From an uncultured Eubacteriales bacterium (GTDB taxonomy: Bacteria > Bacillota > Clostridia > Oscillospirales > Oscillospiraceae), in NCBI GenBank assembly GCA_900319275.1, contig ONNS01000004.1, forward strand, positions 1 to 61,214: 61,214 nucleotides of DNA, given 5' to 3'. The translations under genes were made by a program, and so were the position numbers. The notes beneath the pieces were generated by a model. The model ran no database searches. It had not been told where the DNA came from and worked only from the letters and a program-made list of their open reading frames with translations. Below, in pieces: positions 2,293-17,622 of the stretch. Each line of letters starts with the position of its first letter. The stretch's first letter is position 1.

Positions 2293-3249
2293 TTAGTAAA
2301 AGGTTGCGACCTCGGGATTCGGCGCCTTGCCGGGCGTGGCCTCGATAAAGGTCAGAACAGGCCCTTTTTTGCCATAGGCGCGGCTGAACTTGAAATTCAC
2401 CTTCGCTGTCAGCGTCATCCAGGTCTCGTCCTGCACGGCGTCCGCCTGATCCCACTGGCACACCAGTCCGGCAAACTGGATGTCCTGCACGCAGCAGGTC
2501 ATCACATGGCGGCCGACGATGAAGCTCTTCGGCGGCAGGCGCTTGCGCACCAGGGCCTTGCCCTTGAAGCGCACGGTCTTGTTCTCGTAGTTCTGCGGCT
2601 GCTCGGACAGGTCGCGGTACCACACGGCATAGTCCTCGTCGCCGATCTCGATGACCGGGGCGCTGAGATCAAAGGGCAGGGGATCGACGATGTCGTCATA
2701 GCTCACCGTGCCGTCCATCGCCTCATAGGCGATATCGCTGCGGCGGGAGGCGCCGCGGACGATCTTGTGCAGCTCCATCTTGTCGATCTTGTCGCTGCAG
2801 CGGTTGAACACCACCAGCTCACAGCTTTTGAGTTTATCATAGACGAGCTGTCGCATGTTGGCGTTATAGCTGACAAAGGTGTTGGCGTCGGCAAACATGA
2901 ACTCCTGATAGACCATCCAGTTCTCCGGCATGGCCTGGTAGAGCGCGTCGAGCAGCCACATCCCGTTGTACTCGACAACAACGCGCTCGGCGTCGCACTC
3001 TGCCAGCCACTTGTCAAGGTTTTCGGCGGTCAGCGCGGACTGCTCCTCGACCACGCGGATATAGACGCGCTTGTCGGCAAACTGCTCGGGAGCGTACTCC
3101 TCCTCGCCCTCCTCACAGACGAGCAGCAGCGTGCGCTCGCCGTTGCAGAAGCGCTTGTCCTCCAGCGTCTCCTGGATGAATCTGGTCTTGCCCGCTTCCA
3201 GAAAGCCCGTAAAGAGGTAGACCGGAATATCTTTCTTTTCCTTGCTCAA
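2293..3249 (-). CDS. CobW-type P-loop GTPase fused to a YcgQ/DUF1980-like C-terminal domain
   Basis: A 318-aa protein. The N-terminal part (residues 1-190) resembles the CobW/COG0523 GTPase fold, with an unusual P-loop TGFLEAGKT. The C-terminal part (about 205-318) resembles the YcgQ/TIGR03943 domain: it has FIVGRHVMTCCVQD followed by a GLVCQW strand, as in that family's 'R..TCC..D' signature. I see no transmembrane segments. The start is TTG at 3249, overlapping the TGA of the upstream cobW gene (TTGA) with AAGGAG about 10 bases upstream, so the two genes are translationally coupled. CobW proteins and the YcgQ/YcgR pair both occur in metal contexts; a role in zinc handling is inferred from family and operon. 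Confidence 0.8.
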   Translation of the reverse strand: MSKEKKDIPVYLFTGFLEAGKTRFIQETLEDKRFCNGERTLLLVCEEGEEEYAPEQFADKRVYIRVVEEQSALTAENLDKWLAECDAERVVVEYNGMWLLDALYQAMPENWMVYQEFMFADANTFVSYNANMRQLVYDKLKSCELVVFNRCSDKIDKMELHKIVRGASRRSDIAYEAMDGTVSYDDIVDPLPFDLSAPVIEIGDEDYAVWYRDLSEQPQNYENKTVRFKGKALVRKRLPPKSFIVGRHVMTCCVQDIQFAGLVCQWDQADAVQDETWMTLTAKVNFKFSRAYGKKGPVLTFIEATPGKAPNPEVATFY

Positions 3250-4474
3250 ACCTGAAACAGCTCCTTCAGCGCGTCCTCGCGGATCTTCGAGCCGATCACG
3301 CAGAAGCGGCCCGTGACAGCGGCGCCGCCGCGGCGCACTTCGATCTCGCCGGGGACATAGTCAAAGTACAGCCAATCGCCCTCACCGGAGTCGACCAGGC
3401 CCTTCGCACGCAGGATCACGCCAAAGCGCGCCTCGTCCTGCAGCGCCGCGAGCATCTCGCGCAGCGCCTGCTCGCTGAACTTCTTCGGGGTCTCCATGCC
3501 CCAGCTCGTGAAGATCTCGTCGGCATGGTGATGGTGATGATGGTGGTGATGCCCGTGCCCCTCGTCATCGTCATCGTCGTGATGGTGGTGGCACTCGCAC
3601 TCGGGATCGTCGCACTCGTCCTCGTCGTGGTCGTGGTGATGGTGGTGATGCTCATGCTCGTCGTCATCGTCATCATCGTGGTGATGGTGGTGGCACTCGC
3701 ATTCGGGATCGTCGCACTCGTCCCCGTCGTGGTCGTGGTGATGATGGTGGTGATGCCCGTGCCCGTCCTCGTCATCGTCGTCGTGATGGTGGTGGCACTC
3801 GCATTCGGGATCGTCACACTCGTCCTCGTCGTGGTCGTGGTGGTGATGATGGTGCTCGTGTTCGAGCTCCTCCTTCATCTTCTCAAGGGCGTTGCGGTCC
3901 ATGACCTCGCGGATCTGCGCGCCGCTGAGCTGCTCCCAGGGCGTCGTGATCAGGCTGGCCGTCGCGTTGAGGCCACGCAGCAGCTCGACCGCGTTGAGCG
4001 TTTTCGCGTCGTTGGTCGAATCGGTGCGGCTGAGGACAATGATGTCCGCCGTGGAGACCTGGTCGTTGAAGAACTCGCCGAAGTTGCGCGCGTACATCTT
4101 GGCCTTGTTGGCATCCACGACCGTGACCTTGGCGCCGATCACCGCGCATCCACGCGCTCGACGGCCTTCGCCACGTCCGAGAGCTTGCCGACGCCCGAGG
4201 GCTCGATCAGGATGCGGTCAGGGGCGTAGTCGTCCATGACCTTTTTCAGCGCTTTGGTGAAGTCGCCCACCAGCGTGCAGCAGATGCAGCCGGAGTTCAT
4301 CTCGGTGATCTGCACCCCGGCGTCCTGCAGAAAGGCGCCGTCCACGGCGATCTCGCCGAACTCGTTTTCGATCAGCACCAGCTTTTCACCGTGATAGCCC
4401 TCACGGATCAGCTTGCGGATCAGCGTCGTCTTGCCCGCGCCGAGAAAGCCGGAAAATATATCAATTCTTGTCAA
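3246..4474 (-). pseudogene. CobW/ZNG1-type zinc-metallochaperone GTPase, frameshifted, with His-rich metal-binding repeats
   Basis: The gene is in two frames. 4474 to about 4150 encodes SGFLGAGKTTLIRKL (P-loop), ENEFGE, SGCICCTL (the CxCC metal motif) and LIEPSGVGKLSD. 4142 to 3246 continues with GAKVTVVDA, the NKxD-like LSRTD and the C-terminal CobW_C domain. The frames join at GATGCGCGGTGATC; one added G would read D-A-A-V-I-G and restore about 410 aa. The linker holds His/Asp runs and three copies of DECDDPECEC. The start is TTG at 4474 behind GGAGGTAATTTCC. COG0523 proteins with SGCICCT hand zinc to client enzymes. It may be truly broken or a sequence error; because the rest is intact I lean to a recent mutation or an error. 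Confidence 0.85.
3520..3870 (-). repeat. Coding tandem repeat: His/Asp/Cys-rich metal-binding linker
   Basis: Inside the frameshifted cobW gene, roughly 35-40-codon units recur. Each is a run of 5-9 His with Asp/Glu, then DECDDPECEC, then HHHH and a poly-Asp stretch. Three full DECDDPECEC blocks are seen, and a fourth His run ends the array. The DNA units are similar enough to expand or contract by slippage. The residues (His, Cys, Asp) suit zinc or nickel storage or buffering. Confidence 0.9.
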
Positions 4475-4508: not shown

Positions 4509-4537
4509 ACTATACCATATATTTATGAACAAAACAA
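4509..4537 (-). promoter_or_regulatory. Sigma-70-type promoter of the cobW operon
   Basis: On the minus strand TTGTTT (4537-4532), a 17-base spacer and TATAGT (4514-4509) form a good vegetative promoter, about 35 bases upstream of the TTG start of cobW. A 23-bp palindrome (4552-4574) lies just upstream of the -35 box. Confidence 0.65.
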
Positions 4538-4551
4538 GTATCCGGCAAAAG

Positions 4552-4574
4552 AATTTGAGAATGAAAATCAAATT
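4552..4574. promoter_or_regulatory. Putative Zur/Fur-family operator upstream of cobW
   Basis: A 23-bp palindrome beginning AATTTGAGAA and ending TCAAATT. Its centre reads as a Fur-type 7-1-7 box (TGAGAAT-G-AAAATCA, 12 of 15 matches to TGATAATNATTATCA). Its outer arms AATTTGA.../...TCAAATT are identical to those of the palindrome at 15458-15480 in the zur promoter. It lies 14 bases upstream of the cobW -35 box. Binding by the Zur at 15517-15951 is inference. Confidence 0.6.
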
Positions 4575-4607
4575 CGACGGAAGACAGAGGGGAAGACAAA
4601 GGAATGG

Positions 4608-4636
4608 TTGACTTGTAACGCAATCAGCGTTACAAT
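4608..4636 (+). promoter_or_regulatory. Toxin-antitoxin promoter with embedded operator
   Basis: TTGACT (4608-4613), a 17-base spacer and TACAAT (4631-4636). The spacer holds a perfect inverted repeat TGTAACGC-N5-GCGTTACA (4614-4634) that runs into the -10 box. This is the classic layout for autorepression by the antitoxin or the toxin-antitoxin complex. Confidence 0.8.
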
Positions 4637-4659
4637 AACGGCAAAGGAGTGTGATCGTC

Positions 4660-4968
4660 ATGGAAAAGACCGCGACATTGAACCTTCGTGTGAATCCGAT
4701 TGCGAAGCAGAGGGCAGAGAGCGTCCTCAAACAGCTTGGCATTCCGATGTCCACCGCGATGGATATGTACCTCAATCAGATTGCTCTTGTGGGTGGAATT
4801 CCTTTCCCTGTTACGCTTCCTAAGGCTCCGCACGCTGTTGATGCGGATCGGATGACGGATGAAGAACTGGCTGCAAAGCTCGATCGTGGGATTGAGGACG
4901 CCAACGCAGGACGGACGCGCCACGCGGAAGAGGCTTTCCGCGAACACAGGAACAGACGCGCAGAATGA
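4660..4968 (+). CDS. RelB/DinJ-family antitoxin
   Basis: A 102-aa protein with an N-terminal ribbon-helix-helix (TLNLRVNPIAKQRAESVLKQLG, then STAMDMYLNQIALVGGIPF), the RelB/DinJ signature, and a charged C-terminal tail that would wrap the toxin. The ATG at 4660 has AAAGGAGT about 9 bases upstream; a GTG at 4651 is too close to that site. The last four bases overlap the toxin start (ATGA). It should bind DNA at the dyad in its own promoter and neutralise the partner encoded next. Confidence 0.88.
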   Translation: MEKTATLNLRVNPIAKQRAESVLKQLGIPMSTAMDMYLNQIALVGGIPFPVTLPKAPHAVDADRMTDEELAAKLDRGIEDANAGRTRHAEEAFREHRNRRAE

Positions 4969-5282
4969 AATATACAGTAGACATCACGGAGGCCGCGCTG
5001 CAGGATATGGACGAGATTTACGACTATATCTACTACACGTTCAAGGCTCCGGACACAGCTGCGGCGCAGTATGACCGCATTGCGGATGAAATCCTCTCGC
5101 TGGAAGAAATGCCGCTTCGTTTTGGCATCCCACAATTTGAGCCATGCATTTCAACACAGCTCCATCGGATGCCTGTGGATCATTTCTCCGTTTTCTATCT
5201 CGTGCGCGGCGAAACCGTCATTGTGACGGATGTTCTTTACAGTGCCTCAGATCTGGAGACGCGCCTTGGCGCACGGCACTGA
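4965..5282 (+). CDS. RelE/ParE-superfamily toxin
   Basis: A 105-aa protein of the RelE/ParE fold: an N-terminal strand MKYTVDITEAALQDMDEI, a helical hairpin with DYIYYTF and PDTAAAQYDRI, and a C-terminal sheet with HRMPVDHFSVFYLVRGETVIVTDVLYSASD. The pattern looks closer to ParE/YafQ-like plasmid stabilisation toxins, so the target (ribosome-bound mRNA or gyrase) cannot be stated. It overlaps the antitoxin gene by ATGA, so the two are translated together. Confidence 0.87.
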   Translation: MKYTVDITEAALQDMDEIYDYIYYTFKAPDTAAAQYDRIADEILSLEEMPLRFGIPQFEPCISTQLHRMPVDHFSVFYLVRGETVIVTDVLYSASDLETRLGARH

Positions 5283-5311
5283 TTGAAGAGGCGTCCCCCT
5301 GCCTTTCACGG

Positions 5312-5340
5312 TTGCCATTTTCCGCCCGGAGGCGTATGAT
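5312..5340 (+). promoter_or_regulatory. Promoter of the MFS transporter gene
   Basis: TTGCCA (5312-5317), a 17-base spacer and TATGAT (5335-5340), ending 45 bases upstream of the start codon. Confidence 0.6.
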
Positions 5341-5385
5341 ATCCTCAGGATGTTCCTATCTTTTGTCTGAAAGGGGATCCCTGTG

Positions 5386-6789
5386 ATGAAAACCGAAGCC
5401 CAGATCCGTCAGCGCGAGCAGAGGGAGCTGCAGCGTCTCGACCGCGAGGCCCAAAAGCCCAAAACCGGGCGCTATCTGCTGTTTGTGATGATCATCCTCA
5501 CGGTCATCTATGTGGAGGACGAGATCACCTCCAACATGAACGCGGCCATGCAGCCCTATGTGCTGTTCGACCTGTTCGGCATCTCCTCCCGCAGTGTCAG
5601 CTCGCCGGCCTATACCGCCGCCATCAACACCGTGGCCCCCTGGCAGGTGGCCTCCAACCTGTTTCTGATCATCTCCCCGTTCTACAAGGCCCTGTCGGAC
5701 AAGTACGGCCGCCGGGTGTTTCTGATGATCAACACCGTGGGCATGGGCGTGGGCATGCTGATCGTCATGACCAGCCAAAGCGTGATGCAGTACATTCTGG
5801 GCATGCTCTTTATGCTCTTCTTCACCCCCAACGACATGCAGGTGCTCTATATCATGGAGACCGCCCCCAAGGAGAAGCGGGCCACTTACAGCTTTGTCGC
5901 CAAGGGCATCGCCCTGATCAGCGTGTCCCTCATCGGCGTGCTGTCCAAGACTTTTCTGCGGCAGGACCTGCCCTCCAGCTGGCGGATGGTCTATCTGATC
6001 CCGGTGGCGGTGGCCATCGCCGTGGGCGCCGGATCCTTCTTCCTGGTGCGGGAGACCCCGGTGTTCGTGGAGCAGCGCCGTGCCTTTCTCTCGCTGACGC
6101 CAGAGCAGCGCCGCGCCCGAGCCGCCGAGGATTTAAAAAGCGGCGCCGCCGACGAGGGCGGCGTGTGGAAGGCGCTGAAGTTCATCTTCAGGACACCCCA
6201 GCTGCGCTGGATCCTGATCGCGGGCTTTCTGTTCTTTGCCACCACCTTCTACACCTCTTACTATGCCACAGTGCTGGAGGGGGCCATGTCCACGGACATG
6301 GTGGCCAGCGCCCTGATCATCTATCCCATCTTCAACGGCGTCGTCACGATTGCCAGCGGCTTTTTCTCCGACCGGCTGGGGCGGAAAAAGGTCTGTGTGC
6401 TGCTGGGCAGCCTGGCGCTGGTGGGGCTGGCGCTGTTTGTGGCGGCCTGCCGGCTGGGCTGGGGCCCGGTGGCGGCGGGCGTCGCCTACGGCTGCTCCAT
6501 CGGCGGGCTGTGGTCCATGTCCGATACCATCATCCTCACCATGCCGGCCGAGTCCTCCCCGTCCGGGATGCGCTCCTCGGTCATGGGCACCATCTCCGTG
6601 ATGATCGGCGCGGGCATGTTCATCGGCCAGATCCTCTTTATCGTGCTGCAAAACTTCCTGTCCATGGATCTGCTGTTCCTGTTCATCTGCGTACCCTTCA
6701 TGGCCCTGTCGCTGCTGGTGCTGCTGACCAAGGTCAGGGAGACAAAGGACGTGGATCTCGACAGCATCACCGCGGACACCTATCGCTGA
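5386..6789 (+). CDS. Major facilitator superfamily transporter
   Basis: A 467-aa, 12-segment membrane protein. The loop after TM2 has SDKYGRRVF and the loop after TM8 has SDRLGRKKVC, the two copies of the MFS motif A. The N-terminus is a charged cytoplasmic helix (EAQIRQREQRELQRLDREAQK). The substrate cannot be read from sequence; the form resembles sugar or organic-acid porters. The ATG at 5386 follows AAGGGGATCCCTGTG; a GTG one codon earlier is possible. It has its own promoter and a terminator, so it is monocistronic. Confidence 0.85.
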   Translation: MKTEAQIRQREQRELQRLDREAQKPKTGRYLLFVMIILTVIYVEDEITSNMNAAMQPYVLFDLFGISSRSVSSPAYTAAINTVAPWQVASNLFLIISPFYKALSDKYGRRVFLMINTVGMGVGMLIVMTSQSVMQYILGMLFMLFFTPNDMQVLYIMETAPKEKRATYSFVAKGIALISVSLIGVLSKTFLRQDLPSSWRMVYLIPVAVAIAVGAGSFFLVRETPVFVEQRRAFLSLTPEQRRARAAEDLKSGAADEGGVWKALKFIFRTPQLRWILIAGFLFFATTFYTSYYATVLEGAMSTDMVASALIIYPIFNGVVTIASGFFSDRLGRKKVCVLLGSLALVGLALFVAACRLGWGPVAAGVAYGCSIGGLWSMSDTIILTMPAESSPSGMRSSVMGTISVMIGAGMFIGQILFIVLQNFLSMDLLFLFICVPFMALSLLVLLTKVRETKDVDLDSITADTYR

Positions 6790-6821
6790 GGGTTCTTTCC
6801 TTCTCTACACAACGTAAAACA

Positions 6822-6864
6822 GGGACTGCAGAGTTTCCTCTGCGGCCCCGGCCTTTTTTGTTTT
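6822..6864 (+). terminator. Rho-independent terminator of the MFS gene
   Basis: GGGACTGCAGAG-TTTC-CTCTGCGGCCCC stem followed by CTTTTTTGTTTTT. Confidence 0.8.
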
Positions 6865-6945
6865 TAATGGCAAAGGACGGATCTTCTGTCTTTTGTTATG
6901 AAGACAATAGCTCTGTCCCCCTTTGTCTTTCACTTGACAAAACAC

Positions 6946-7186
6946 GGGCGTGTTGCAAAATGAGGGAAATCGTGTAAAGCCCGGTCACGCCCGTAGGGGA
7001 GGGGCTCGCCCCTCCCGGCAGTACGGTGTTGTTATTTGAAGGCAAAGTACGGCGCAATGGCAGCATTTAGCGGTTACGCCGTACTTTTTTCTGAAATAAA
7101 AGATTCGTGCGCACGGGAGGGGACGAGCCCCTCCCCTACGATCAACCCATCATTTTTGCAGCTAATTCACATTTTGCAACACGCCC
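6946..7186. mobile_element. MITE-like element, perfect 17-bp terminal inverted repeats (TTGCAAAAT family, copy 1)
   Basis: Ends are GGGCGTGTTGCAAAATG (6946-6962) and its exact complement (7170-7186). Inside are two inverted blocks of the form GGGGAGGGGCTCGCCCCTCCC and a central hairpin built on ACGGCG/CGCCGT. No gene. Related copies lie at 10546-10666, 34218-34458 and 39735-40158. The rest of this intergenic stretch (7187-7390) holds the leader of the histidine kinase gene and nothing else I can identify. Confidence 0.85.
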
Positions 7187-7390
7187 GCTGTTGAAACCGT
7201 ACTCCGATTGTTTTTTCTCTGTTGGGGATAGACGGCTATCCCTGTTTTGTGATAGAATACGGACAGTTATGATAACACACGGATTACAGCCAAAGTATAT
7301 ATTTCCGCAGGATGATGGTTTCCGGCTCATGACAGCCCTGACTTTGAAAGCTGCAATTCGTTAAACTGTGAAGAAAAAGGGGGACCTGAC

Positions 7391-10300
7391 ATGAACAAAC
7401 AGAGGTCTCAAAATCGAATGACAATTAACATTGCCGTTATCGGCGGCTTGTTGGTTGCGCTTGTCTTAATCATGACGACAGTCTGGACCGGGGTCAGTGC
7501 GCAACGCGGCACAAACAAGGCTGTTCACTCTGTCAGTAATTTCTATCTCCGGGAATTGGCCGGGCGCCGTGGGCAGGTCGTTGCGTCGAATCTTCAAAGC
7601 AACATCCAGAACATGCGGGACGCGCTGGATCTGCTGGATGAAAATGACTTATACGATCTGGAGCACCTGCAGGCTTTCCAGGCCAGGATGAAAAAGCTCT
7701 ATAAGGCGGAGAAATTTGCATTTGTGGATGCCAATGGACTGATCTATACCTCGCTGGGGCTGCTTGACAACATTGAGGAGTATGACTTCGACTATCTCTC
7801 GATTTCCGGCCCGGAGGTATCCATCAAGGACATTGAGAGCGAGGAGAAAAAGGTCGTGATCGCGCTTCCCATCAATCATCGGCCATTCAACGGTCAGACT
7901 CTGGTGACCTGCTTCATGGAGATCGATATGGACGTGCTGTTGGAGGGGCTGTCGCTCCAGTCCGACGCCAATGAAGCGACCTTCTGCAATCTCTACGACA
8001 GGAGCGGTATCTCCCTCACCAACAAGGTGCTCGGCGGCACCTCCAGCGACGTAAACCTGCTGGATGCCCTCAAAGATGCCAGATTTGAAAAAGACTCCTC
8101 CTATGAACGGGCAGTGGGAGACTTTACAGCGGGGCGGGAGGGCGTTATTACCTTCAACTATTCAGACATTGACGAGACAATGTATTATTTCCCTGTCGAG
8201 GGCACCGATTGGATGCTCACGTATCTGATCCGCGAGAGCGTTATCAGCGATCAGATCAACATGATTTCCCAGGGCATCATCATCCGCAGCCTGATCCAGA
8301 GCATAATCACCGTGCTCGTCATGCTCGGCATATTTGCCATGCTGTTGATGCAAAACCGGAAAAACGCGAAGCTCATCCTGGACAAGGAGACGGTGGAGGC
8401 GGAGAACCGGGGCAAGCAGGCGGAATTTGAGGCGCGTCTGAAGCTCCAGGATCAGCTGTTGGCGCAGGAGCGTCAAAACGAATCCCTGACCGTCATGCAC
8501 GAGATGCTCGATTCCGGCCCCTGGTTCATGGATTTCAACGAGCAGGGCCAGATGATCAGCGTGACCTGGTCGGACACCTTCCGAAGGATGGTCGGCTATA
8601 CCAGCGAGGAGGACTTTCCCAACGCGCTGGAATCCTGGTCGGATCTGCTGCATGAGGAGGACAAGGATCGCGTATTGAAGGCTTATGCCGACGCCATCAA
8701 CGACTATACCGGCCAGACGACCTACGATGTGGAGTACCGGCTCAGGACGAAAAACCAGGGCTGGCGCTGGTTCCACGCCATGGGACAGCTGACCCGCCGC
8801 CCGGACGGCACGCCAATCACCTACATCGGCATCTTCGTGGACATCACGGAGCGGAAGGAAATGGAGCAGACGCTGGCCCGGCAGCAGGAGGCGCTTAAGA
8901 TCGCGCTGGCCCAGGCGGAGGCGGCCAATGCTGCCAAGACCTCCTTCCTGTCCTCCATGAGCCACGAGATCCGGACGCCCATGAACGCCATCATCGGCCT
9001 GGACACCATCGCGCTGAAGGACCCCAGCCTGTCCGAGGAGACCCGGGACCGGCTCCAGAAGATCGGCGGCAGCGCAAAGCACCTGCTCTCCCTCATCAAC
9101 AATATCCTCGACATGAGCCGCATCGAGAGCGGGCGGATGACCCTGAAAAATGAAGAATTCTCCATGCGGGAGACGCTTGAACAGATCAATACCATGATCA
9201 ACAGTCAGTGCCAGGAAAAGGGTCTGAACTATGATTGCCGGATCATAGGCAAGGTGGATGACTATTACATTGGTGATGACATGAAGCTCAAGCAGGTCCT
9301 CATCAATATACTGGGCAATTCCGTGAAGTTTACGCCGAAGGGCGGGAACGTCTCCTTCACGGTGGAGCCCATGACGATCTTCGAGGATAACGCCACGCTG
9401 CGATTCATCGTGAAGGACACCGGCATCGGCATGGACAGCGACTTTCTGCCGAAGATATTCGAGCCTTTCTCGCAGGAGGATGAACACAAGAGCAATAAAT
9501 ACGGCAGCACGGGATTGGGCATGGCCATCACCAAGAACATCGTGGAGATGATGAACGGCAATATCGCCGTGGAGAGCGAGAAGGGCGTCGGCTCCGTCTT
9601 TACCGTGACTGTCACGCTGCGGACCTCGGACAAGCGGGCGCAGGACGATGCGAAGATGCGGCCCCAGGATCTGCGCGTGCTGATCATCGACGATGACCCG
9701 GTCGCATGCGAGCATGCCAAGCTGGTGCTGGAGGAGGTCGGCATCGTGTCGGATGCCTGCTTAAGCGGCGACGAGGCCATGGAAATGCTGGCGCTCGCAA
9801 ACGCCCGGATGGAGGCCTATAACCTCGTCCTGGTGGACCTCAAAATGCCAGATCAGGACGGCGTGGAGGTCACGCGGCGTATCCGGGCACAGTATTCCGA
9901 TGAATCCACCATCATCATACTGACGGCTTACAGTTGGGATGACATCATGGAAGACGCGCTGGAGGCCGGCGTGGACAGCTTTATCGCGAAACCCCTGTTC
10001 GCATCCAATGTGCTGGACGAGTTCAAACAGGCGATTTGCAGGCGGCTGGAGACCCGCCGGGAGGTCCACAAGGCGGAACTGGCTGGAAGGCGCGTCCTGC
10101 TGGCGGAGGATATAGAAATCAATGCCGACATTATGATGGACATATTGTCCCTGAGGGAGATAGAGGCGGATCACGCCGAGAACGGACAGATCGCCGTTGA
10201 GATGTTTCAGAATAGTGCGGTTGGTGAGTACAGCGCGATCCTGATGGATGTGCGCATGCCCGTGATGAACGGGCTGGAGGCGACGAGGGCGATCCGGAGC

Positions 10301-10462
10301 CTGGATCGAGCAGACGCGAAAGAGATACCGATCATCGCTCTGACAGCGAACGCTTTTGACGAGGATGTACAGAGATCGCTGCAGGCAGGCATGAACGCAC
10401 ATCTGAGCAAACCGGTGGAATCCGAGCATTTGTTTGAAACCCTGGAACAGCTGATTAGATAA
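7391..10462 (+). CDS. Membrane hybrid sensor histidine kinase with two receiver domains
   Basis: A 1023-aa protein. TM1 at about 12-32, an extracytoplasmic sensor domain (about 35-295, Cache-like by size), TM2 at about 299-319, a coiled coil, PAS/PAC (about 372-493), HisKA with phospho-acceptor His525 (SHEIRTPMN), HATPase (about 627-750), REC1 (phospho-acceptor Asp816 in VDLKMPD, Lys in FIAKPL) and REC2 (Asp953 in MDVRMPV, Lys in LSKPV). No output or Hpt domain and no response regulator gene next to it, so the end of the relay must be encoded elsewhere. It has GGGGG 8 bases before the ATG. The gene is flanked on both sides by MITE-like elements. Confidence 0.93.
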   Translation: MNKQRSQNRMTINIAVIGGLLVALVLIMTTVWTGVSAQRGTNKAVHSVSNFYLRELAGRRGQVVASNLQSNIQNMRDALDLLDENDLYDLEHLQAFQARMKKLYKAEKFAFVDANGLIYTSLGLLDNIEEYDFDYLSISGPEVSIKDIESEEKKVVIALPINHRPFNGQTLVTCFMEIDMDVLLEGLSLQSDANEATFCNLYDRSGISLTNKVLGGTSSDVNLLDALKDARFEKDSSYERAVGDFTAGREGVITFNYSDIDETMYYFPVEGTDWMLTYLIRESVISDQINMISQGIIIRSLIQSIITVLVMLGIFAMLLMQNRKNAKLILDKETVEAENRGKQAEFEARLKLQDQLLAQERQNESLTVMHEMLDSGPWFMDFNEQGQMISVTWSDTFRRMVGYTSEEDFPNALESWSDLLHEEDKDRVLKAYADAINDYTGQTTYDVEYRLRTKNQGWRWFHAMGQLTRRPDGTPITYIGIFVDITERKEMEQTLARQQEALKIALAQAEAANAAKTSFLSSMSHEIRTPMNAIIGLDTIALKDPSLSEETRDRLQKIGGSAKHLLSLINNILDMSRIESGRMTLKNEEFSMRETLEQINTMINSQCQEKGLNYDCRIIGKVDDYYIGDDMKLKQVLINILGNSVKFTPKGGNVSFTVEPMTIFEDNATLRFIVKDTGIGMDSDFLPKIFEPFSQEDEHKSNKYGSTGLGMAITKNIVEMMNGNIAVESEKGVGSVFTVTVTLRTSDKRAQDDAKMRPQDLRVLIIDDDPVACEHAKLVLEEVGIVSDACLSGDEAMEMLALANARMEAYNLVLVDLKMPDQDGVEVTRRIRAQYSDESTIIILTAYSWDDIMEDALEAGVDSFIAKPLFASNVLDEFKQAICRRLETRREVHKAELAGRRVLLAEDIEINADIMMDILSLREIEADHAENGQIAVEMFQNSAVGEYSAILMDVRMPVMNGLEATRAIRSLDRADAKEIPIIALTANAFDEDVQRSLQAGMNAHLSKPVESEHLFETLEQLIR

Positions 10463-10545
10463 GCTGTTGGCATAAATCAGACAACGCAAGCAATTTCCAT
10501 GCCATAATCGCGCATACCGCGTGCACAAGGATCTGGCCCGGAAGA

Positions 10546-10666
10546 GGGCTGTTGCAAAACGTTTTTTCTCACACAAAAACAGCGCTGACTCGCAGGGGCG
10601 CTTCACGAAGCGCCCCTGCCGTAATACTGCTTCTTTTCCAGAAAAACGTTATTATGCAACACGCCC
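10546..10666. mobile_element. MITE-like element (TTGCAAAAT family, copy 2, 121 bp)
   Basis: GGGCTGTTGCAAAACG (10546-10561) is inverted at the right end as ...ATTATGCAACACGCCC (10651-10666). The middle has the palindrome GGGGCGCTTCACGAAGCGCCCC in place of the GGGGAGGGGC block of copy 1. It separates the histidine kinase from the pheST transcription unit. The bases between 10463 and 10545 hold nothing recognisable. Confidence 0.75.
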
Positions 10667-10754
10667 TTTTGCCCGTATTTGATAATACCACGAAGACGGC
10701 GTTATTCATCTATCCCTTTGTTCAAAGATTTTCGCCGGCGGGCCTATTTTGCCC

Positions 10755-10783
10755 TTGATTCCCCGGGCGGAATGTGCTAAAGT
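10755..10783 (+). promoter_or_regulatory. Promoter of the pheST operon
   Basis: TTGATT (10755-10760), a 17-base spacer and TAAAGT (10778-10783), placed just upstream of the T-box leader. Confidence 0.65.
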
Positions 10784-10789
10784 ACAACT

Positions 10790-11022
10790 GTTATTGCGAG
10801 GAACGGGAAAATAGCGCAGGTTTACCCACAGAGAGCCGGGGTCGGCGGCTGGAAGCCCCGGTGGGAGGAGACGCGCTTGGTTCGCCCGGGAGCACCGGCC
10901 AATCCCCGGCGGCAGGACGCCGTTACCGTCCGAACAAGTGGCGGCCTGTTGGCCGAAGCCGGGTGGTACCGCGGAAGGCAGACTTTCGTCCCAGTTTGTG
11001 GGATGAGAGTCTGTTTTTTTGC
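10790..11022 (+). ncRNA. T-box leader (tRNA-Phe sensing) of pheST
   Basis: The leader has the conserved T-box sequence GGGTGGTACCGCGG (10961-10974), a stem I region with AGAGAGCCGGGG...CCCCGGTG, and a TTC triplet (10881-10883) placed where a specifier codon is expected. TTC is a Phe codon, matching the downstream pheS and pheT. Uncharged tRNA-Phe should pair with the specifier and the T-box bulge and stop terminator formation. The specifier position is inferred, not folded. Confidence 0.93.
10979..11020 (+). terminator. T-box attenuator terminator
   Basis: CAGACTTTCGTCCCA-GTTTG-TGGGATGAGAGTCTG stem (one mispair) followed by TTTTTTT. It lies between the T-box motif and pheS, so it is the conditional terminator of the leader. 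Confidence 0.9.
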
Positions 11023-11072
11023 CCGGCAACCAACTGTATATTGGATTTTATATCAATAGAGGGAGAGGAAAC

Positions 11073-12098
11073 ATGAAAGAACTGATGCAGAAGCTGAGAG
11101 ACGCGAGTCTCCAGGCCGTATCCCAGGCCCCCAGCATGGAAATGCTGGAGGAGATGCGCGTGAAGTATCTGGGCAAAAAGGGCGAGCTGACCGCCGTTTT
11201 GCGCCAGATGGGCAAGCTCTCCGCCGAGGAGCGCCCCGCGATGGGGCAGCTGGCCAACCAGCTGCGCGGAGACATCGAAGCCGCGATCGAGTTGCGCCGC
11301 GCGGAGCTCAGCGCCGCGCTGATGGAGGCGAAGCTCGAAGCCGAGGCCGTGGACGTGACCATGCCCGCGAAGGAGCTGCGCCAGGGCCACAAGCACCCGA
11401 TGTACAACGTGCTCGACCAGATCAAGGACATCTTCATCGGCATGGGCTTTGAGATCCAGGACGGCCCCGAGGTCGAGCGCGCCGAGTATAACTTCGACAA
11501 GCTGAACATCGACGAGGGGCACCCCTCCCGCGACTGGACCGACACCTTCTATTTCACCGAGGACAGCCAGATCCTGCTGCGCACGCAGACCTCCGGGATG
11601 CAGATCCACGCCATGGAGACGCGCGAGCTGCCGATCCGCATCGTGGCTCCGGGCCGCGTCTACCGCAAGGATGAGGTCGACGCCACGCACTCCCCGATGT
11701 TCCACCAGATCGAGGGCCTGGTCGTCGACAAGGGCGTGACGATGGCCGACCTGAAGGCCACGCTCAACCTCGTCGTCGAGCAGCTCTACGGCAAGGGCAC
11801 GGTCACGCGCTTCCGCCCCCACCACTTCCCCTTCACCGAGCCGAGCTGCGAGCTGGATATCCAGTGCCACAAGTGCGGCGGCAAGGGCTGCCCCACCTGC
11901 AAGGGCCAGGGCTGGATCGAGGTGCTGGGCGCCGGCATGGTGCACCCCAAGGTGCTCTCGGGCTGCGGCATCGACCCGGACGTGTACTCCGGCTGGGCCT
12001 TCGGCATGGGGCTTGAGCGCCTGGCCATGGGTGAGTACAAGATCACCGACCTGCGATTGATTTTTGAAAACGACGAACGCTTCCTGCAGCAGTTCTGA
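11073..12098 (+). CDS. pheS: Phenylalanine-tRNA ligase alpha subunit
   Basis: A 341-aa class II synthetase catalytic subunit of the normal length. The N-terminal coiled-coil arm (residues 1-90) is followed by GHKHPMYNVLDQI, the motif 2 region GRVYRKDEVDATHSPMFHQIEGL and the motif 3 region SGWAFGMGLERLAM. The Cys cluster CHKCGGKGCPTCKGQG is a variant of the usual loop before motif 3. It charges tRNA-Phe as part of an alpha2-beta2 enzyme. The ATG at 11073 follows GGGAGAGGAAAC. It is controlled by the T-box just upstream and runs into pheT 17 bases later. Confidence 0.97.
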   Translation: MKELMQKLRDASLQAVSQAPSMEMLEEMRVKYLGKKGELTAVLRQMGKLSAEERPAMGQLANQLRGDIEAAIELRRAELSAALMEAKLEAEAVDVTMPAKELRQGHKHPMYNVLDQIKDIFIGMGFEIQDGPEVERAEYNFDKLNIDEGHPSRDWTDTFYFTEDSQILLRTQTSGMQIHAMETRELPIRIVAPGRVYRKDEVDATHSPMFHQIEGLVVDKGVTMADLKATLNLVVEQLYGKGTVTRFRPHHFPFTEPSCELDIQCHKCGGKGCPTCKGQGWIEVLGAGMVHPKVLSGCGIDPDVYSGWAFGMGLERLAMGEYKITDLRLIFENDERFLQQF

Positions 12099-12115
12099 GA
12101 GAGGAGACGGAGAAA

Positions 12116-14800
12116 ATGGTATTATCCAGAAAATGGCTGACCGAGTTTGTCGACCTGCCCCTGAGCGAGGTCGGCGACCGTGAATTTGACGAGGCTATGA
12201 CCGTCTCGGGCTCGAAGGTGGAGACCACCGAGGATCTGAGCCGGAGCATGAAGAACGTGAAGGTGGGGCGCATCCTGTCGATCGAGCGCCACCCGAACTC
12301 CGACCATATGCTGGTGCTGCAGCTCGACGTGGGCGAGGAGGAGCCGGTACAGATCTGCACCGGCGCCTGGAACGTCCATGTGGGCGATCTGGTGCCCGCG
12401 GCGCTGCACAACGCGCGCCTCCCCGGCGGCGTGACGATCACGAAGGGCAAGCTGCGCGGCGTCGTGTCGAACGGCATGCTCTGCTCGCTCAAGGAGCTGA
12501 ACATGACCGAGCACGACTTCCCCTACGGCGTCATCGAAGCGGCCGCGATCCTCGGCGACTACAAGGCCATCGACCCCGAAAAGCCCTCGATCCGCGCCGA
12601 TATCCAGCCGGGCGATCGCATTTACGGCAAGGTCGTCGCCGCAAAGGTCGAGAGCGTCGAAAACGCCGGTGTGAACCTGTGGAAGCTGCGTCTCAACCCC
12701 GAGGCCGAGCTCATCACGCGCTGCCAGAACCTGCACGAGGGCGACCTCGTGGCCTACGACACGGCGAAGAACAGCGTCTGCACATTGGCCGACCTGCACG
12801 CCGAGCAGCGCGAGTTCCCGCACTGCATCCCCGACGGCATCCTGATTCTGCACGAGGACGTGAAGCCCGGCGACGACGTGGCCGCGCTCCTCGGCTATGA
12901 CGACCATATCGTCGAGTTCGAGATCACCCCGAACCGCCCCGACTGCCTGTGCATGATCGGTCTCGCCCGCGAGGCGGCCGCGACCTTCCATAAAGAGCTC
13001 AAGCTGCACACGCCCGTCGTCCGCGCCGAGGCCGGCGGCGATATCAACGAACTGACGAAGATCGTCATCGAGGACCCCGAGCTCTGCCCGCGCTATACGG
13101 CCCGCATGGTCAAAAACGTGAAGATCGAGCCCTCGCCCGCGTGGCTGCGCGAGCGTATCCGCGCCGCCGGCATGCGCCCGATCAACAACATCGTCGATAT
13201 CACGAACTACGTCATGCTCGAATACGGCCAGCCGATGCACGCTTTCGATTTCAGCTGTGTCGAGGGGCAGGAGGTCCACATCCGCCGCGCGAGGGAGGGC
13301 GAGAGCATCCAGACGCTCGACGGCACGGCGCGCGAGCTGAACACCAGCATGCTCTGCATCTGCGACGTGAACAAGCCGATCTGCGTGGCCGGCGTCATGG
13401 GCGGCGCCAACTCCGAGATCGTGGGTGACACGGCCATGGTGCTCTTCGAATCGGCCAACTTCAACGGCCCCTCGGTCCGCCGCACGGCCACGAGTCTCGG
13501 CATGCGCACCGACGCCTCCTCCCGCTATGAGAAGGGCCTTGACCCCCAGAATACGCTCAAGGCCGTGCAGCGCGCCTGCGAGCTGATCGAGCTGCTGCAC
13601 TGCGGCGAGGTCGTCGAGGGCGTGATCGACGTGATCCCCCAGCCGCTGAAGGAGACCACCGTAAAACTCGAGAGCGACAAGATCAACGCCCTGCTCGGCA
13701 CCGATATCGACGAGGGAACCATGCGCGAGATCCTGGAGCGCGAAGGCTTCACGCTCGAGGGCGACACGATCCACGTCCCCTCGTGGCGCGGCGATGTCAG
13801 CCACTACTCCGACGTGGCCGAGGAGGTCGCCCGTTTCTACGGCTATAACGTGCTGCCGACCGCCTTCTCCGGCGGCATCAGCACGGCCGGCGGCTACAGC
13901 CCGATCCAGCAGTACGAGCGCGAGCTCGGCACGGTCTGCCGCGGCCTCGGGCTCGACGAGATCATCACCTATTCCTTCATCAGCCCCAGCTACTATGACA
14001 AGATCCGGATGAGCGCCGACGATCCGCGCCGTGACAGCCTGCGCATCCTCAATCCGCTCGGCGAGGACACCTCGATCATGCGCACAACGATCCTGCCCTC
14101 GATGCTCGAGATCCTGAGCCGCAACTACAAGGTCCGCAACAAGGAAGCTTGGCTTTATGAGATCGGCAAGATCTACCTTAAGCGCCCGGACGGCATGGCC
14201 GACGAGCCGAAGATCGTCTCGTTCGGCGCCTACGGCGAGGGCGTGGACTTCTTCACGCTCAAGGGCTGGGTTGAGACGCTGCTCGGCACGCTGCGCGCCG
14301 GAGAGGCCCGCTTCGTCGCGGACAAGACGAATCCCGCCTACCATCCCGGCCGCTGCGCCAAGGTCTATCTTCAGGGCAAAGAGATCGGCACGCTCGGCCA
14401 GATCCACCCCGAGGTCGCGAAAAACTACGGCGTCGACGCCGAGCTCTACTGCGCCGAGCTGAGTTTTGAGACCATGTTTGCCTGCAAGAGCGGCACGCCG
14501 GTCTTCAAGCCGCTGCCGCGCTTCCCGGGCACCAGCCGCGACATCGCGGTCATCTGCCGCGCCGACATCCCCGTCGGCGAGCTGCGCGACTGCATATTGA
14601 AAAACGGTGGACAGTATCTGGTCGACTGTACGCTCTTTGACGTCTACACCGGCCATCACATCGCCGACGGCATGAAGTCCGCGGCCTTCTCGCTGCGTAT
14701 GCGCGCCGAGGATCAGACCCTGACCGACGAGCACGCCGAAGAGACCGTTAAGGCTGTTCTTACGGCACTGGAGCGCCAATTCGGCGCGGTTCTGCGCTGA
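12116..14800 (+). CDS. pheT: Phenylalanine-tRNA ligase beta subunit with an extra domain
   Basis: An 894-aa protein, about 95 residues longer than the usual 790-810. Order: N-terminal region, EMAP/tRNA-binding OB fold (about 45-125, GVVSNGMLCSLKEL), an extra segment (about 138-236), the B3/4 editing domain, the B5 domain, the class II-like core and the C-terminal FDX-ACB anticodon-binding domain. The extra segment contains GKVVAAKVESVENAG and LITRCQNLHEGDLVAYDTAK, which read like a second OB fold copy; the normal sequence resumes at IPDGILILHEDVKPG. It is the structural and editing partner of PheS. Confidence 0.95.
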   Translation: MVLSRKWLTEFVDLPLSEVGDREFDEAMTVSGSKVETTEDLSRSMKNVKVGRILSIERHPNSDHMLVLQLDVGEEEPVQICTGAWNVHVGDLVPAALHNARLPGGVTITKGKLRGVVSNGMLCSLKELNMTEHDFPYGVIEAAAILGDYKAIDPEKPSIRADIQPGDRIYGKVVAAKVESVENAGVNLWKLRLNPEAELITRCQNLHEGDLVAYDTAKNSVCTLADLHAEQREFPHCIPDGILILHEDVKPGDDVAALLGYDDHIVEFEITPNRPDCLCMIGLAREAAATFHKELKLHTPVVRAEAGGDINELTKIVIEDPELCPRYTARMVKNVKIEPSPAWLRERIRAAGMRPINNIVDITNYVMLEYGQPMHAFDFSCVEGQEVHIRRAREGESIQTLDGTARELNTSMLCICDVNKPICVAGVMGGANSEIVGDTAMVLFESANFNGPSVRRTATSLGMRTDASSRYEKGLDPQNTLKAVQRACELIELLHCGEVVEGVIDVIPQPLKETTVKLESDKINALLGTDIDEGTMREILEREGFTLEGDTIHVPSWRGDVSHYSDVAEEVARFYGYNVLPTAFSGGISTAGGYSPIQQYERELGTVCRGLGLDEIITYSFISPSYYDKIRMSADDPRRDSLRILNPLGEDTSIMRTTILPSMLEILSRNYKVRNKEAWLYEIGKIYLKRPDGMADEPKIVSFGAYGEGVDFFTLKGWVETLLGTLRAGEARFVADKTNPAYHPGRCAKVYLQGKEIGTLGQIHPEVAKNYGVDAELYCAELSFETMFACKSGTPVFKPLPRFPGTSRDIAVICRADIPVGELRDCILKNGGQYLVDCTLFDVYTGHHIADGMKSAAFSLRMRAEDQTLTDEHAEETVKAVLTALERQFGAVLR

Positions 14801-14869
14801 TTTCTGGCTTTTATCCTCCACTTTCCCAAAATTTTAATGAAAATTAAGGGCTTTATTCACAATTTCGAC

Positions 14870-14897
14870 TTTACTTGACAGCGAAACATGCTATAAT
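14870..14897 (+). promoter_or_regulatory. Candidate ireB promoter
   Basis: TATAAT (14892-14897) with TTTACT (14870-14875) 16 bases upstream. A TTGACA at 14875-14880 is only 11 bases from the -10 box, too close to serve. The 60 bases before this are AT-rich. Confidence 0.5.
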
Positions 14898-14957
14898 AAG
14901 CACAAGTAATGAATAGTCCACGGATTTACTTTCAAGGACAGAGGAGGGAATCAGGCC

Positions 14958-15203
14958 ATGGAGGATGCAACAAGGAAGTTTACCGCGCTCGACAACAAAG
15001 CGGAGATGAAGGAGATCCTTTCATCCGTATATAACTCCCTGATGGTGAAGGGCTATAACCCCATCAACCAGATCGTCGGGTATATTCTCTCTGAGGACCC
15101 CACCTACATCACCAACTATAACGGCGCCCGCACGCTGATCACGCGGATCGACCGGGACGAGCTGATGCAGGAGCTGGTGCGGACCTACCTTGATAAGAAA
15201 TAA
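14958..15203 (+). CDS. ireB: IreB-family regulatory phosphoprotein (UPF0297)
   Basis: An 81-aa protein matching the small conserved Firmicute family UPF0297/YrzL/IreB over its whole length ([45 protein letters not shown]-like [23 protein letters not shown]). In Enterococcus, IreB is phosphorylated by the PASTA kinase IreK and limits cephalosporin resistance. In many Firmicutes it precedes ruvX and a DUF1292 gene; here it stands alone, followed by an inverted-repeat element whose first base is the last base of its stop codon. AGGAGGGAATCAGGCC precedes the ATG. Confidence 0.93.
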
Positions 15204-15365
15204 TACTAATACCTGATAAGAAGCTTTAAAAAGATTTCGAGTCAGAATTGTGCCAGACAAGGCGCCTTCCGCAGAGCATAATGGACATATATGGTCAAGG
15301 AAGGCAACGCAGTATGACGCAATTCTGGCCGAAAGATATTAAAGATTTCTATTAGGTATTAGTAT
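15203..15365. mobile_element. MITE-like element, 163 bp, terminal inverted repeats ATACTAATACCT
   Basis: The left end ATACTAATACCTGATAAGAA (15203-15222) is inverted at the right end (15347-15365), differing at a few positions. Internal complementary blocks (CAGAATTGTGCC with GCAATTCTGGC; GCGCCTTCC with GGAAGGCA) allow the whole element to fold as one long imperfect hairpin. There is no gene. It begins at the ireB stop codon and separates ireB from its terminator. Its sequence is unrelated to the other two element families in this window. Confidence 0.8.
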
Positions 15366-15386
15366 AAGGAAGCCCCCAAATTACCG

Positions 15387-15418
15387 CTGCCGCAGGCTGA
15401 ACGCCTGCGGCAGTTTTC
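15387..15418 (+). terminator. Rho-independent terminator after ireB
   Basis: CTGCCGCAGGC-TGAAC-GCCTGCGGCAG, perfect 11-bp stem, followed by TTTTCTATT. Confidence 0.85.
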
Positions 15419-15432
15419 TATTCGCTTTTTTC

Positions 15433-15460
15433 TTGACTTTTCCGCTTTCTATGCTATAAT
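15433..15460 (+). promoter_or_regulatory. zur-znuACB promoter
   Basis: TTGACT (15433-15438), a 16-base spacer and TATAAT (15455-15460). The first operator-like palindrome overlaps the last three bases of the -10 box and covers the expected start point. Confidence 0.75.
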
Positions 15461-15480
15461 TTGAAAACAGTTTTCAAATT
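15458..15480. promoter_or_regulatory. Putative Zur operator 1 (perfect 11-1-11 palindrome)
   Basis: A perfect palindrome: AATTTGAAAAC, one central A, GTTTTCAAATT. The outer seven bases on each side match those of the palindrome in the cobW promoter (4552-4574). Its place over the -10 box and start site suits repression. Confidence 0.65.
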
Positions 15481-15485
15481 ACTTT

Positions 15486-15500
15486 TGATAATGATTCTCA
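15486..15500. promoter_or_regulatory. Putative Zur/Fur operator 2
   Basis: TGATAAT-G-ATTCTCA is a Fur-family 7-1-7 box (14 of 15 matches to TGATAATNATTATCA). Its centre is 24 bases from the centre of operator 1, so two dimers could bind side by side. Its right half ATTCTCA also occurs in the cobW-promoter site read on the minus strand. Confidence 0.65.
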
Positions 15501-15516
15501 ATTCTGGAGGCCCCGT

Positions 15517-15951
15517 ATGGGAGATAAAGGACAGTATAAAACCCGACAGCGCGAGGAGGTGCTCTCCTATCTGCGCTCGGCGGCCGGACAGCATGTGACG
15601 GCCAACGACCTTTGCAGCTATTTCAAGCTGCAGGGCCGCCCGATGGGCACGGCCACGGTCTACCGCCAGCTGGAGCGCATGGTGGACGAGGGACTCGTCA
15701 GCAAGTACATCATCGACGCCAACACGCCCGCCTGCTTTGAATACACGCCGCGCGAGAGCCATGTGAACGAGGGACAGTGCTTCCACTGCCGCTGCGAGGT
15801 CTGCGGCACGCTCTTCCACATCCACTGCGACGAGCTGGAGTGTCTGTCCGGGCACCTCTCCGCCGAGCATGGCTTTACGATCGACCCGCTGCGCACGGTT
15901 TTCTACGGCGTCTGCGGCGAGTGCCGCCGCAGAGAGGAGGCGGATGAATGA
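15517..15951 (+). CDS. zur: Fur-family metal-responsive repressor, probably Zur
   Basis: A 144-aa Fur-superfamily protein: winged helix (GQHVTANDLCSYF, then MGTATVYRQLERMVDEGLVSKY), a dimerisation and metal region (HCRCEVCGTLFHIHCDELE) and the structural zinc site CxxC...CxxC (C-R-C-E-V-C and CGEC). It opens a unit with a zinc-type ABC importer and overlaps znuA by ATGA, so zinc sensing is the best reading; Fur or PerR cannot be excluded from the protein alone. Two operator-like palindromes sit in its promoter, which suggests autoregulation. CTGGAGG precedes the ATG. Confidence 0.88.
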   Translation: MGDKGQYKTRQREEVLSYLRSAAGQHVTANDLCSYFKLQGRPMGTATVYRQLERMVDEGLVSKYIIDANTPACFEYTPRESHVNEGQCFHCRCEVCGTLFHIHCDELECLSGHLSAEHGFTIDPLRTVFYGVCGECRRREEADE

Positions 15952-16901
15952 GACCTACGCTTTCTCTGCTCCTCGCGGCCGTGCTGCTGCTCGGTACGCT
16001 CTCGGGCTGCGGCAGCACCCCGGCACAGAAGGAGGACGGCAAGCTCCAGATCGTCGCCACGATCTGGCCGATTTACGACTGGGTGCGGAATCTGACTGCC
16101 GGGAGCGACGGCGTCTCGCTGACGCTGCTGCTGGACAGCGGCGTGGACATGCACTCCTTCCAGCCCACGGCCGCGGATATCATTAAAATTTCCGACTGTG
16201 ACGTGCTGCTGTATGTCGGCGGTGAGAGCGACGAGTGGATCGGTGACGCGATCGAAGAGGCTGTCAACCGCGAGCTTGTCGCGGTGAATCTGATGGAGGT
16301 CCTCACACCCCGGCTGCAGAACGAGGAGTACGTCGAGGGCATGCAGCACAGCGAGGAGCATACCGGTGCGCCGGAGAGGGACGAGCACATCTGGCTCTCG
16401 CTCGAGAATGCCCGGCTCTGCTGCGCGGCGATCGCGCAGACGCTCGAGGAAAAGGACCCGGCACACGCGGCCCTGTACGCGGAAAATGAGGCAAAATACG
16501 CCGAAGCCCTCGCCGCGCTCGACGGCGCGTACCGCAGCGGTATTGAGAGCGCCGCAAGAGATACGCTGCTCTTTGCCGACCGCTTCCCGTTTCGCTATCT
16601 GACCGAGGACTATGGCCTGCACTATTACGCGGCCTTCGCCGGCTGCGAGGCCGAGACCGAGGCCAGCTTTGAGACCCTGGCTTTCCTTGCCAACAAAACG
16701 AAGGAGCTTGCGCTCCCCGCTGTGCTGGTGATCGACGGCTCGGATCAGAAGCTCGCCCGCGCCGTGGTACAGAGCGCCGGCGTGACCGGCTGCGAGATAT
16801 GCTGTCTCAACTCGATGCAGTCCACGCGCCCCACGGACGCAAGCACATATCTCTCCATTATGGAAGAAAATCTCGCCGTTTTGAAAACGGCGCTGAACTG
16901 A
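15948..16901 (+). CDS. znuA: Zinc/manganese ABC transporter substrate-binding lipoprotein
   Basis: A 317-aa cluster A-I (ZnuA/AdcA/TroA) metal-binding protein. A lipoprotein signal ends at LSGC with lipidated Cys21. Metal ligands expected in the family are seen as His in VDMHSFQPTAADI and in DEHIWLSLENA; at the third site the sequence is FADRFPFRYLTEDYGL, where many ZnuA proteins have His, so Asp or Arg stands there. The short His/Glu stretch (MQHSEEHTG) is a modest zinc-loop. It overlaps zur (ATGA) and is followed by the ATPase 13 bases later. Confidence 0.92.
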   Translation: MRPTLSLLLAAVLLLGTLSGCGSTPAQKEDGKLQIVATIWPIYDWVRNLTAGSDGVSLTLLLDSGVDMHSFQPTAADIIKISDCDVLLYVGGESDEWIGDAIEEAVNRELVAVNLMEVLTPRLQNEEYVEGMQHSEEHTGAPERDEHIWLSLENARLCCAAIAQTLEEKDPAHAALYAENEAKYAEALAALDGAYRSGIESAARDTLLFADRFPFRYLTEDYGLHYYAAFAGCEAETEASFETLAFLANKTKELALPAVLVIDGSDQKLARAVVQSAGVTGCEICCLNSMQSTRPTDASTYLSIMEENLAVLKTALN

Positions 16902-16914
16902 AGGATGCTCCTGT

Positions 16915-17622
16915 ATGGCACAAATCATCTGTGATCAACTGACCCTGGGCTATGAAAACACCCGGCTGCTGAGCGGGCTGAGTTTTCAGGTGAACGCCGG
17001 GGATTATCTCTGCATTGTGGGCGAAAACGGCTCCGGCAAGTCCACGCTCGTGCGCACGCTGCTGGGATTGCAGCCGCCGGTCAGCGGGTCGATCCGCTTT
17101 TCCGACGGCCTGAGCGCGCGGGAGATCGGCTATCTGCCGCAGCAGACCGAGGTGCAGCGCGACTTCCCGGCCTCGGTGCGCGAGATCGTGCTCTCGGGCT
17201 GCCAGAACCGCATGGGGCTGCGCCCCTTCTACCGCAGGGAAGAGCGCGCCCTGGCCGAGAGCAACATGGAAAAGCTCGGCATCCAGAACCTCGCCGAGCA
17301 CTGCTACCGTGAGCTTTCGGGCGGACAGCAGCAGCGCGTGCTGCTCGCGCGCGCCCTGTGTGCCACCCGAAAGCTGCTGCTGCTCGACGAGCCCGTCTCG
17401 GGACTCGACCCCTTTGCCACCAACGAGATGTACCATCTGATCGCGGGGCTCAACGACGAGGGGATCAGCATCATCATGGTCTCGCACGATATCGACGCGG
17501 CCCTTCGCTATGCCAGCCATATCCTGCACATCGGCGGCGGCACCTTCTTCGGCACCGCGGCGGATTACGCGGCCAGTCCCGTCGGACGCCGCTATCTCGA
17601 TCTGGGAGGCAGCGGCGTATGA
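16915..17622 (+). CDS. znuC: Zinc ABC transporter ATP-binding protein
   Basis: A 235-aa ABC ATPase with Walker A GENGSGKST, Q-loop PQQTEV, signature LSGGQQQRV, Walker B LLLLDEPVSGLD and the switch His in MVSHD. The family length is normal. It powers the znuA/znuB importer at the membrane. Its stop overlaps the permease start (ATGA). Confidence 0.93.
   Translation: MAQIICDQLTLGYENTRLLSGLSFQVNAGDYLCIVGENGSGKSTLVRTLLGLQPPVSGSIRFSDGLSAREIGYLPQQTEVQRDFPASVREIVLSGCQNRMGLRPFYRREERALAESNMEKLGIQNLAEHCYRELSGGQQQRVLLARALCATRKLLLLDEPVSGLDPFATNEMYHLIAGLNDEGISIIMVSHDIDAALRYASHILHIGGGTFFGTAADYAASPVGRRYLDLGGSGV

Follow-up and report, generated by a model that had tools for sequence, protein, structure and literature searches.

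Candidate Zur-type operators before zur-znuACB and cobW in an uncultured Oscillospiraceae bacterium

Background

The Zur box of Bacillus is TCGTAATNATTACGA. The Zur consensus printed for Streptomyces coelicolor is TGAAAATGATTTTCA (PMC2823685), and the cysteine in the regulatory zinc site of that protein is C79. Genes of the COG0523 group are found under Zur as well: one paper gives 68 candidates (PMC2770081), and YciC of B. subtilis is described in another (PMC5007448). Zur may also act as an activator: at the exporter gene zitB of S. coelicolor, Zur activates the gene and the region from -78 to -40 is protected. In this paper, we have analysed a 61,214-nucleotide window (the whole of the stretch studied, contig ONNS01000004.1, here C134) from the 3.04-Mb genome (161 contigs, 97.7% complete) of an uncultured Oscillospiraceae bacterium, in which similar palindromes precede a zur-znuACB locus and a cobW operon.

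A first-pass annotation of this window had proposed that the palindromes join cobW and zur-znuACB in one Zur regulon. The proposal holds in part: the operator before zur-znuACB is conserved, the site before cobW is of the same type and the genome has a single Fur-family match, but the cobW site is not conserved. Judging from the sequence comparisons below, zur-znuACB is very likely autoregulated, and cobW is plausibly a recently gained target.

Results

Palindromes before zur and cobW

Direct reading and pattern search locate the palindrome of the zur promoter at 15458-15480 (AATTTGAAAACAGTTTTCAAATT), where it is perfect (11+1+11), and that of the cobW promoter at 4552-4574 (AATTTGAGAATGAAAATCAAATT). 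As had been noted in the first pass, the two have identical 7-base arms (AATTTGA/TCAAATT) and AA at positions 9-10; a third site, 15486-15500 (TGATAATGATTCTCA), differs from TGATAATNATTATCA by a single mismatch, and the two sites of the zur promoter lie 24 bases apart, centre to centre (15469 and 15493).

A symmetric 23-base matrix was refined on 30 loci from relatives, using the DNA upstream of their Fur-like genes (40 sites, 37 unique), with the window and L017 left out of training; its seed was a consensus typed after viewing the window and the relatives, the refinement being on the relatives only. With this matrix, made from relatives' zur promoters, the three sites rank 1 to 3 in the 61-kb window, with scores of 32.4 (15458), 18.8 (4552) and 15.3 (15482), followed by 4.2 at 58391. 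The sequence model R1 gives the two zur sites 21.7 and 14.6 bits and the cobW site 8.5 bits (E 0.34), the next place in the window having 6.1.

The genus set of 102 genomes has 9 exact matches to AATTTGAN9TCAAATT, in six of the genomes, and none in any of the 102 to a reversed control pattern. Four of these matches belong to zur and cobW in the window's own genome (G000) and in its nearest relative found (G184), and one lies before zur in G223; two others fall within open frames and two outside them, where there is no recognised zinc gene. A score of at least 18.8, that of the cobW site, is attained at 9 positions in 20 Mb of first-order Markov sequence, for which the training DNA was intergenic DNA of the window (53% A+T, sites included) and so perhaps less A+T-rich than true promoters. 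A less impressive test allowed up to 3 arm mismatches, giving three window matches, a number reached by 5 of 100 shuffles. The palindromes are real, and chance is an unlikely source of them.

Several weaker candidates were rejected. Five further exact TTTGAN9TCAAA places in the own genome have matrix scores of -3.2 to -15.0, and a match on contig C92 from the own-genome R1 search, in which 150 of 2359 first-look candidates were scored, has a score of 0.3. Five of the non-zur R1 matches in other genomes, fetched for scoring, reach -1.0, 4.7, 7.7, 10.7 and 14.3, the last of them overlapping the start of an open frame.

The zur-znuACB locus and its operators

All elements of this locus are on the forward strand. 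A sigma-70-type promoter, TTGACT-16-TATAAT at 15433-15460, is found by consensus scan (11/12, a consensus match only), with a terminator-like hairpin directly upstream. Candidate operator 1 (15458-15480), which has a counterpart in G184, reaches into the -10 hexamer (15455-15460), sharing its final three bases; candidate operator 2 (15482-15504), which includes 15486-15500 and is seen by R1 at 15484-15503, sits in the leader ahead of the ribosome-binding site, and its counterpart in G184 scores 23.6. The inter-operator linker differs between these two genomes while the palindromes persist. Downstream are the genes of the Fur-family regulator, called Zur by context (15517-15951), a ZnuA-type metal-binding protein (15948-16901; PF01297), a ZnuC-type ATPase (16915-17622; PF00005) and a ZnuB-type permease (17619-18452; PF00950).

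The regulator carries the Fur domain PF01475 (63.1 bits, cut-off 23.1), and in the whole genome it is the only protein that does. Its structural model has a mean predicted local distance difference test (pLDDT) score of 83.7, and its best Foldseek matches are Fur, PerR and Zur chains, so that the fold comparison does not separate Zur from Fur or PerR. In 22 rows of alignment A2, the two CxxC pairs expected to hold a structural zinc (C93, C96, C133, C136) and further cysteines and histidines are invariant. C73 is also invariant in these rows (L025, left out of A2, has a tryptophan there) and is not aligned on the regulatory-site cysteine of S. coelicolor Zur. The NCBIfam Zur model NF008646 gives 28.5 bits against a cut-off of 167, which lowers the case for membership in that model's family and not that for Zur-like working. 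The gene shares an operon with znuACB behind a putative autogenous operator, as a zur gene would, and it is from operon and operator that we infer its Zur identity.

Distribution of the motif among relatives

A close orthologue of the regulator (at least 217 bits) is encoded in 10 of the 102 genus genomes, five more having matches of at most 91 bits, and two operators precede zur in all ten. In eight of the zur-bearing genomes the operator starts are 50-51 bases apart, and in the five of these whose promoters were examined, the -35 has one operator next to it and the other covers the -10; G000 and G184 have a spacing of 24, with one operator over the -10 and the other in the leader. The Fur-like protein of G184 is 97% identical to that of the window, as is that of L017, a rumen metagenome-assembled genome (MAG), RUG11160; by this likeness G184 is very probably the same MAG.

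The matrix was also run over 38 Fur loci (321 kb; threshold at least 14; L036, L052 and L056 left out). Of the 36 matches, 34 precede fur by no more than 143 bases, and the remaining two, in L034, lie 1958 and 2007 bases before fur and precede znuA; the motif thus occurs in these loci only in front of fur or znuA. Most of these sites are training sites; among the loci not in training (L017, L034, G000, G184, G004, G223 and G227), L017, L034, G004, G223 and G227 show the same behaviour as the training loci. A site is present in all 21 loci that have ZnuC and ZnuB relatives beside fur and testable upstream DNA. Of the orthologues whose fetched loci contain no relative of znu, L019, L022, L028 and L039 have no match and L045 has two weak ones (18.3 and 14.6), and the 11 distant Fur loci scanned with the matrix have none. 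The motif therefore tracks the importer.

The first-pass annotation had also suggested an operator specific to this lineage. This is not needed, because the core is the printed S. coelicolor Zur consensus, and the motif is also found before fur-znu in Lachnospiraceae, Solobacterium and Treponema. The patchiness of the zur-znuACB cassette in the genus would have come about through transfer or repeated loss; transfer between families is argued from distribution only, because 18 of the 25 inner branches are open in a tree of 28 regulators.

Some of these loci have features of their own. The regulator orthologues of L019 (5001-6687), L022 and L028 are 55-59% identical to that of the window and have neither adjacent znu genes nor an operator; by eye, a cation-efflux-like gene is next in L019, and a folP-like gene is near in all three. 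In L040, a Lachnospiraceae MAG, a Fur-like regulator and a ZnuA lipoprotein form one open frame of 472 residues (5001-6419), which is either a fusion of sensor and importer part or the result of a lost stop or an assembly fault. Between fur and znuA, L033 (5396-5797), L038 (5434-5766) and L041 (5384-5728) encode a small membrane-like protein with an HxCxGxxCxxC-type stretch.

The cobW palindrome and promoter

The DNA upstream of cobW was compared in 57 distinct genomes, made up of 26 loci from a family draw, 30 from a genus draw and 3 further zur-bearing genomes, with two repeats removed. The family draw had fetched 30 loci, of which L060, L072, L080 and L082 had no usable cobW start; 21 of the 26 usable loci have the full 300 upstream bases, and L077 has just 84. 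The count leaves out 25 genomes with a close cobW match but no locus. The palindrome is present in two of the 57 genomes, G000 (18.8) and G184 (19.5), the best score elsewhere being 8.7.

In the window the palindrome (4552-4574, reverse strand) has one canonical and one off-consensus half. By eye, the cobW promoter would be TTGTTT-17-TATAGT at 4509-4537 on the reverse strand, like that of genus relatives; it has a weak -35 and is missing from the consensus scan. If transcription starts 7 bases past the -10, the centre of the palindrome is at about -61, upstream of the inferred -35. No terminator is listed at 4552-4574, and that role was rejected for the palindrome. G184 has a tandem duplication of about 25 bases, one palindrome arm among them, immediately ahead of its cobW site (L178:1460-1525).

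The cobW operon and its surroundings

The cobW gene is read on the reverse strand in two pieces, an N-terminal one with the G3E GTPase domain (4139-4474; PF02492, 109.9 bits) and a His-rich C-terminal one (3246-4142; PF07683, 33.0 bits), which together make a G3E GTPase with a metal-binding tract. Next, on the same strand, is a CobW-like GTPase fused to a YcgQ-type DUF1980_C domain (2293-3249; PF21537, 76.1 bits; PF02492, 22.2 bits); of 150 family genomes, 75 have relatives of this protein at E of at most 0.001. Among the papers listed for zinc regulators in this group, for COG0523 with DUF1980 and for DUF1980, YcgQ and TIGR03943, none deals with this genus or with a CobW-DUF1980 fusion.

Homology between G000 and G184 upstream of cobW stops two bases outside the palindrome. 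Beyond it, between cobW and a histidine kinase, the window has a segment of about 2.6 kb (4577-7200) with a toxin-antitoxin pair and, by eye, an MFS-like gene, which is missing there in G184. A role of the palindrome for the divergent toxin-antitoxin pair is unlikely, because G184 keeps the palindrome with no such pair beside it. Within the segment, 6945-7187 resembles a small mobile repeat, having perfect inverted repeats of 18 nt that flank an inner pair of 21 nt, and a similar but looser stretch is seen by eye near 10545-10670.

Discussion

We propose that the Fur-family product of 15517-15951 is a Zur-like zinc sensor and that the palindromes serve as its operators. Zinc-bound dimers would occupy both operators of zur-znuACB, which span the -10, the start site and the leader, and would shut the operon off; when zinc is low, the dimers would leave and the importer would be made. 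The comparisons show the operators, how they are conserved and that they go with znu genes; both zinc as the metal and repression as the mode of action are inferred. In the lineage of G000 and G184, the widespread cobW operon carries one weaker, half-degenerate site near -61, to which Zur may bind and through which it may modulate cobW, more likely lowering its expression when zinc is ample. We assign a probability of about 0.58 to this reading, in which a zur-znuACB cassette of patchy distribution regulates itself and cobW has recently come under Zur; the figure is reduced from about 0.6 because the own-genome model search omits the cobW site and the regulatory cysteine does not align with that of known Zur.

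Several observations weigh against it. The cobW palindrome is missing from 55 genomes, among them the eight other zur-bearing genomes of the genus, so that the candidate operator precedes cobW in just 2 of the 10 zur-bearing genomes, and its two carriers are sisters, which makes it a single event. The cobW site departs at position 15, which does not vary among 34 aligned operators; R1, with its low score there, does not place the site among its 5 own-genome matches at E of at most 10. Between G000 and G184 the palindrome is no better preserved than the adjacent cobW promoter, 2 of 23 bases differing in the one as against 3 of about 79 in the other. The cobW frame is broken in the window and open for 393 residues in G184; a real break, as opposed to an assembly fault, would therefore mean that the regulated operon is damaged in the window genome. 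Finally, the regulator passes no NCBIfam Zur, Fur or PerR model. Absence of the palindromes from orthologous promoters, which the first-pass annotation had named beforehand as evidence against a joint regulon, is thus seen at cobW (55 of 56 other genomes) and not at zur.

One alternative is that zur-znuACB alone is regulated and the cobW palindrome is an unused accident or relic. Its absence from eight of the ten zur-bearing genomes, its degenerate half and its 8.5 bits all fit such an origin, as do G004, G168 and G172, where a single contig carries zur and cobW at a distance of 16-17 kb and cobW has no site, so that a shared neighbourhood does not imply shared control. An accident would however have had to be a rare one, since we estimate the chance of such a score in one 150-base promoter at about 1 in 15,000 on the Markov background, and as rarer still when judged from the four non-zur, non-cobW places in the 102 genomes; besides, both arms are kept in G184. 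We regard this alternative as doubtful. That the regulator senses manganese or iron, the importer carries that metal and the operators are of Mur or Fur type seems to us unlikely: the best-scoring NCBIfam models for the regulator are those of Fur and PerR, none of them near its cut-off, the ZnuA family has manganese binders among the listed models and the fold comparison mixes Fur, PerR and Zur, but the best models of the three importer proteins are those of the zinc transporter (AztC, AztA and AztB for ZnuA, ZnuC and ZnuB, all below cut-off), the operator core is the Zur consensus of S. coelicolor and the regulator has a Cys-rich invariant set.

The position of the cobW site raises a further question, that of sign. 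The sign that goes with sites over the -10 and leader cannot be carried over to one near -61; activation also fits this position, and repression could act from there too. With ample zinc the regulator might thus activate cobW while acting in the opposite sense on znuACB, as a centre upstream of the inferred -35 would allow. Since the start of cobW is itself a predicted one, with a weak -35 and a promoter that the scan does not list, and since the COG0523 genes in known Zur regulons are repressed, we hold this to be distinctly improbable, and slightly more so the version in which the new operator drew cobW under Zur as an activator, giving import and chaperone opposite effects.

If the proposed autoregulated cassette with a recently gained cobW target is right, an operator has been described for Zur-like regulators across gut and rumen Bacillota and beyond. 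The genus would also offer a natural experiment: a close cobW relative (at least 79% identity) is present in 55 of 61 sampled genomes (a tally of 59 takes in weaker paralogues), the regulator in 10 of 102 and the cobW site in two of those ten, so that a regulon's gain of a member could be followed in close relatives.

Overall, the system is of a familiar type, to which evolution has added one twist. The operator is unlike the Bacillus box TCGTAATNATTACGA, and the cobW target is limited to two genomes, with a CobW-DUF1980 fusion as chaperone partner. In other respects the B. subtilis Zur regulon (znuACB, yciC) is alike, in that a Fur-family zinc regulator acts there on both an ABC importer and a COG0523 GTPase (PMC5007448). 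The zitB operator of S. coelicolor, like the cobW site with its centre at about -61, lies upstream of the -35; full activation of zitB needs multimeric upstream binding, whereas here there is one imperfect predicted site. As to the operator itself, S. coelicolor Zur has the same core, TGAAAATGATTTTCA, and the C. glutamicum Zur operator is a longer, 21-bp palindrome (PMC2823685). Compared with these actinobacterial operators, those described here belong to another host lineage, most of their arms extend to AAnTTGA/TCAAnTT, and they are usually paired around the promoter at a spacing of 45-51 bases.

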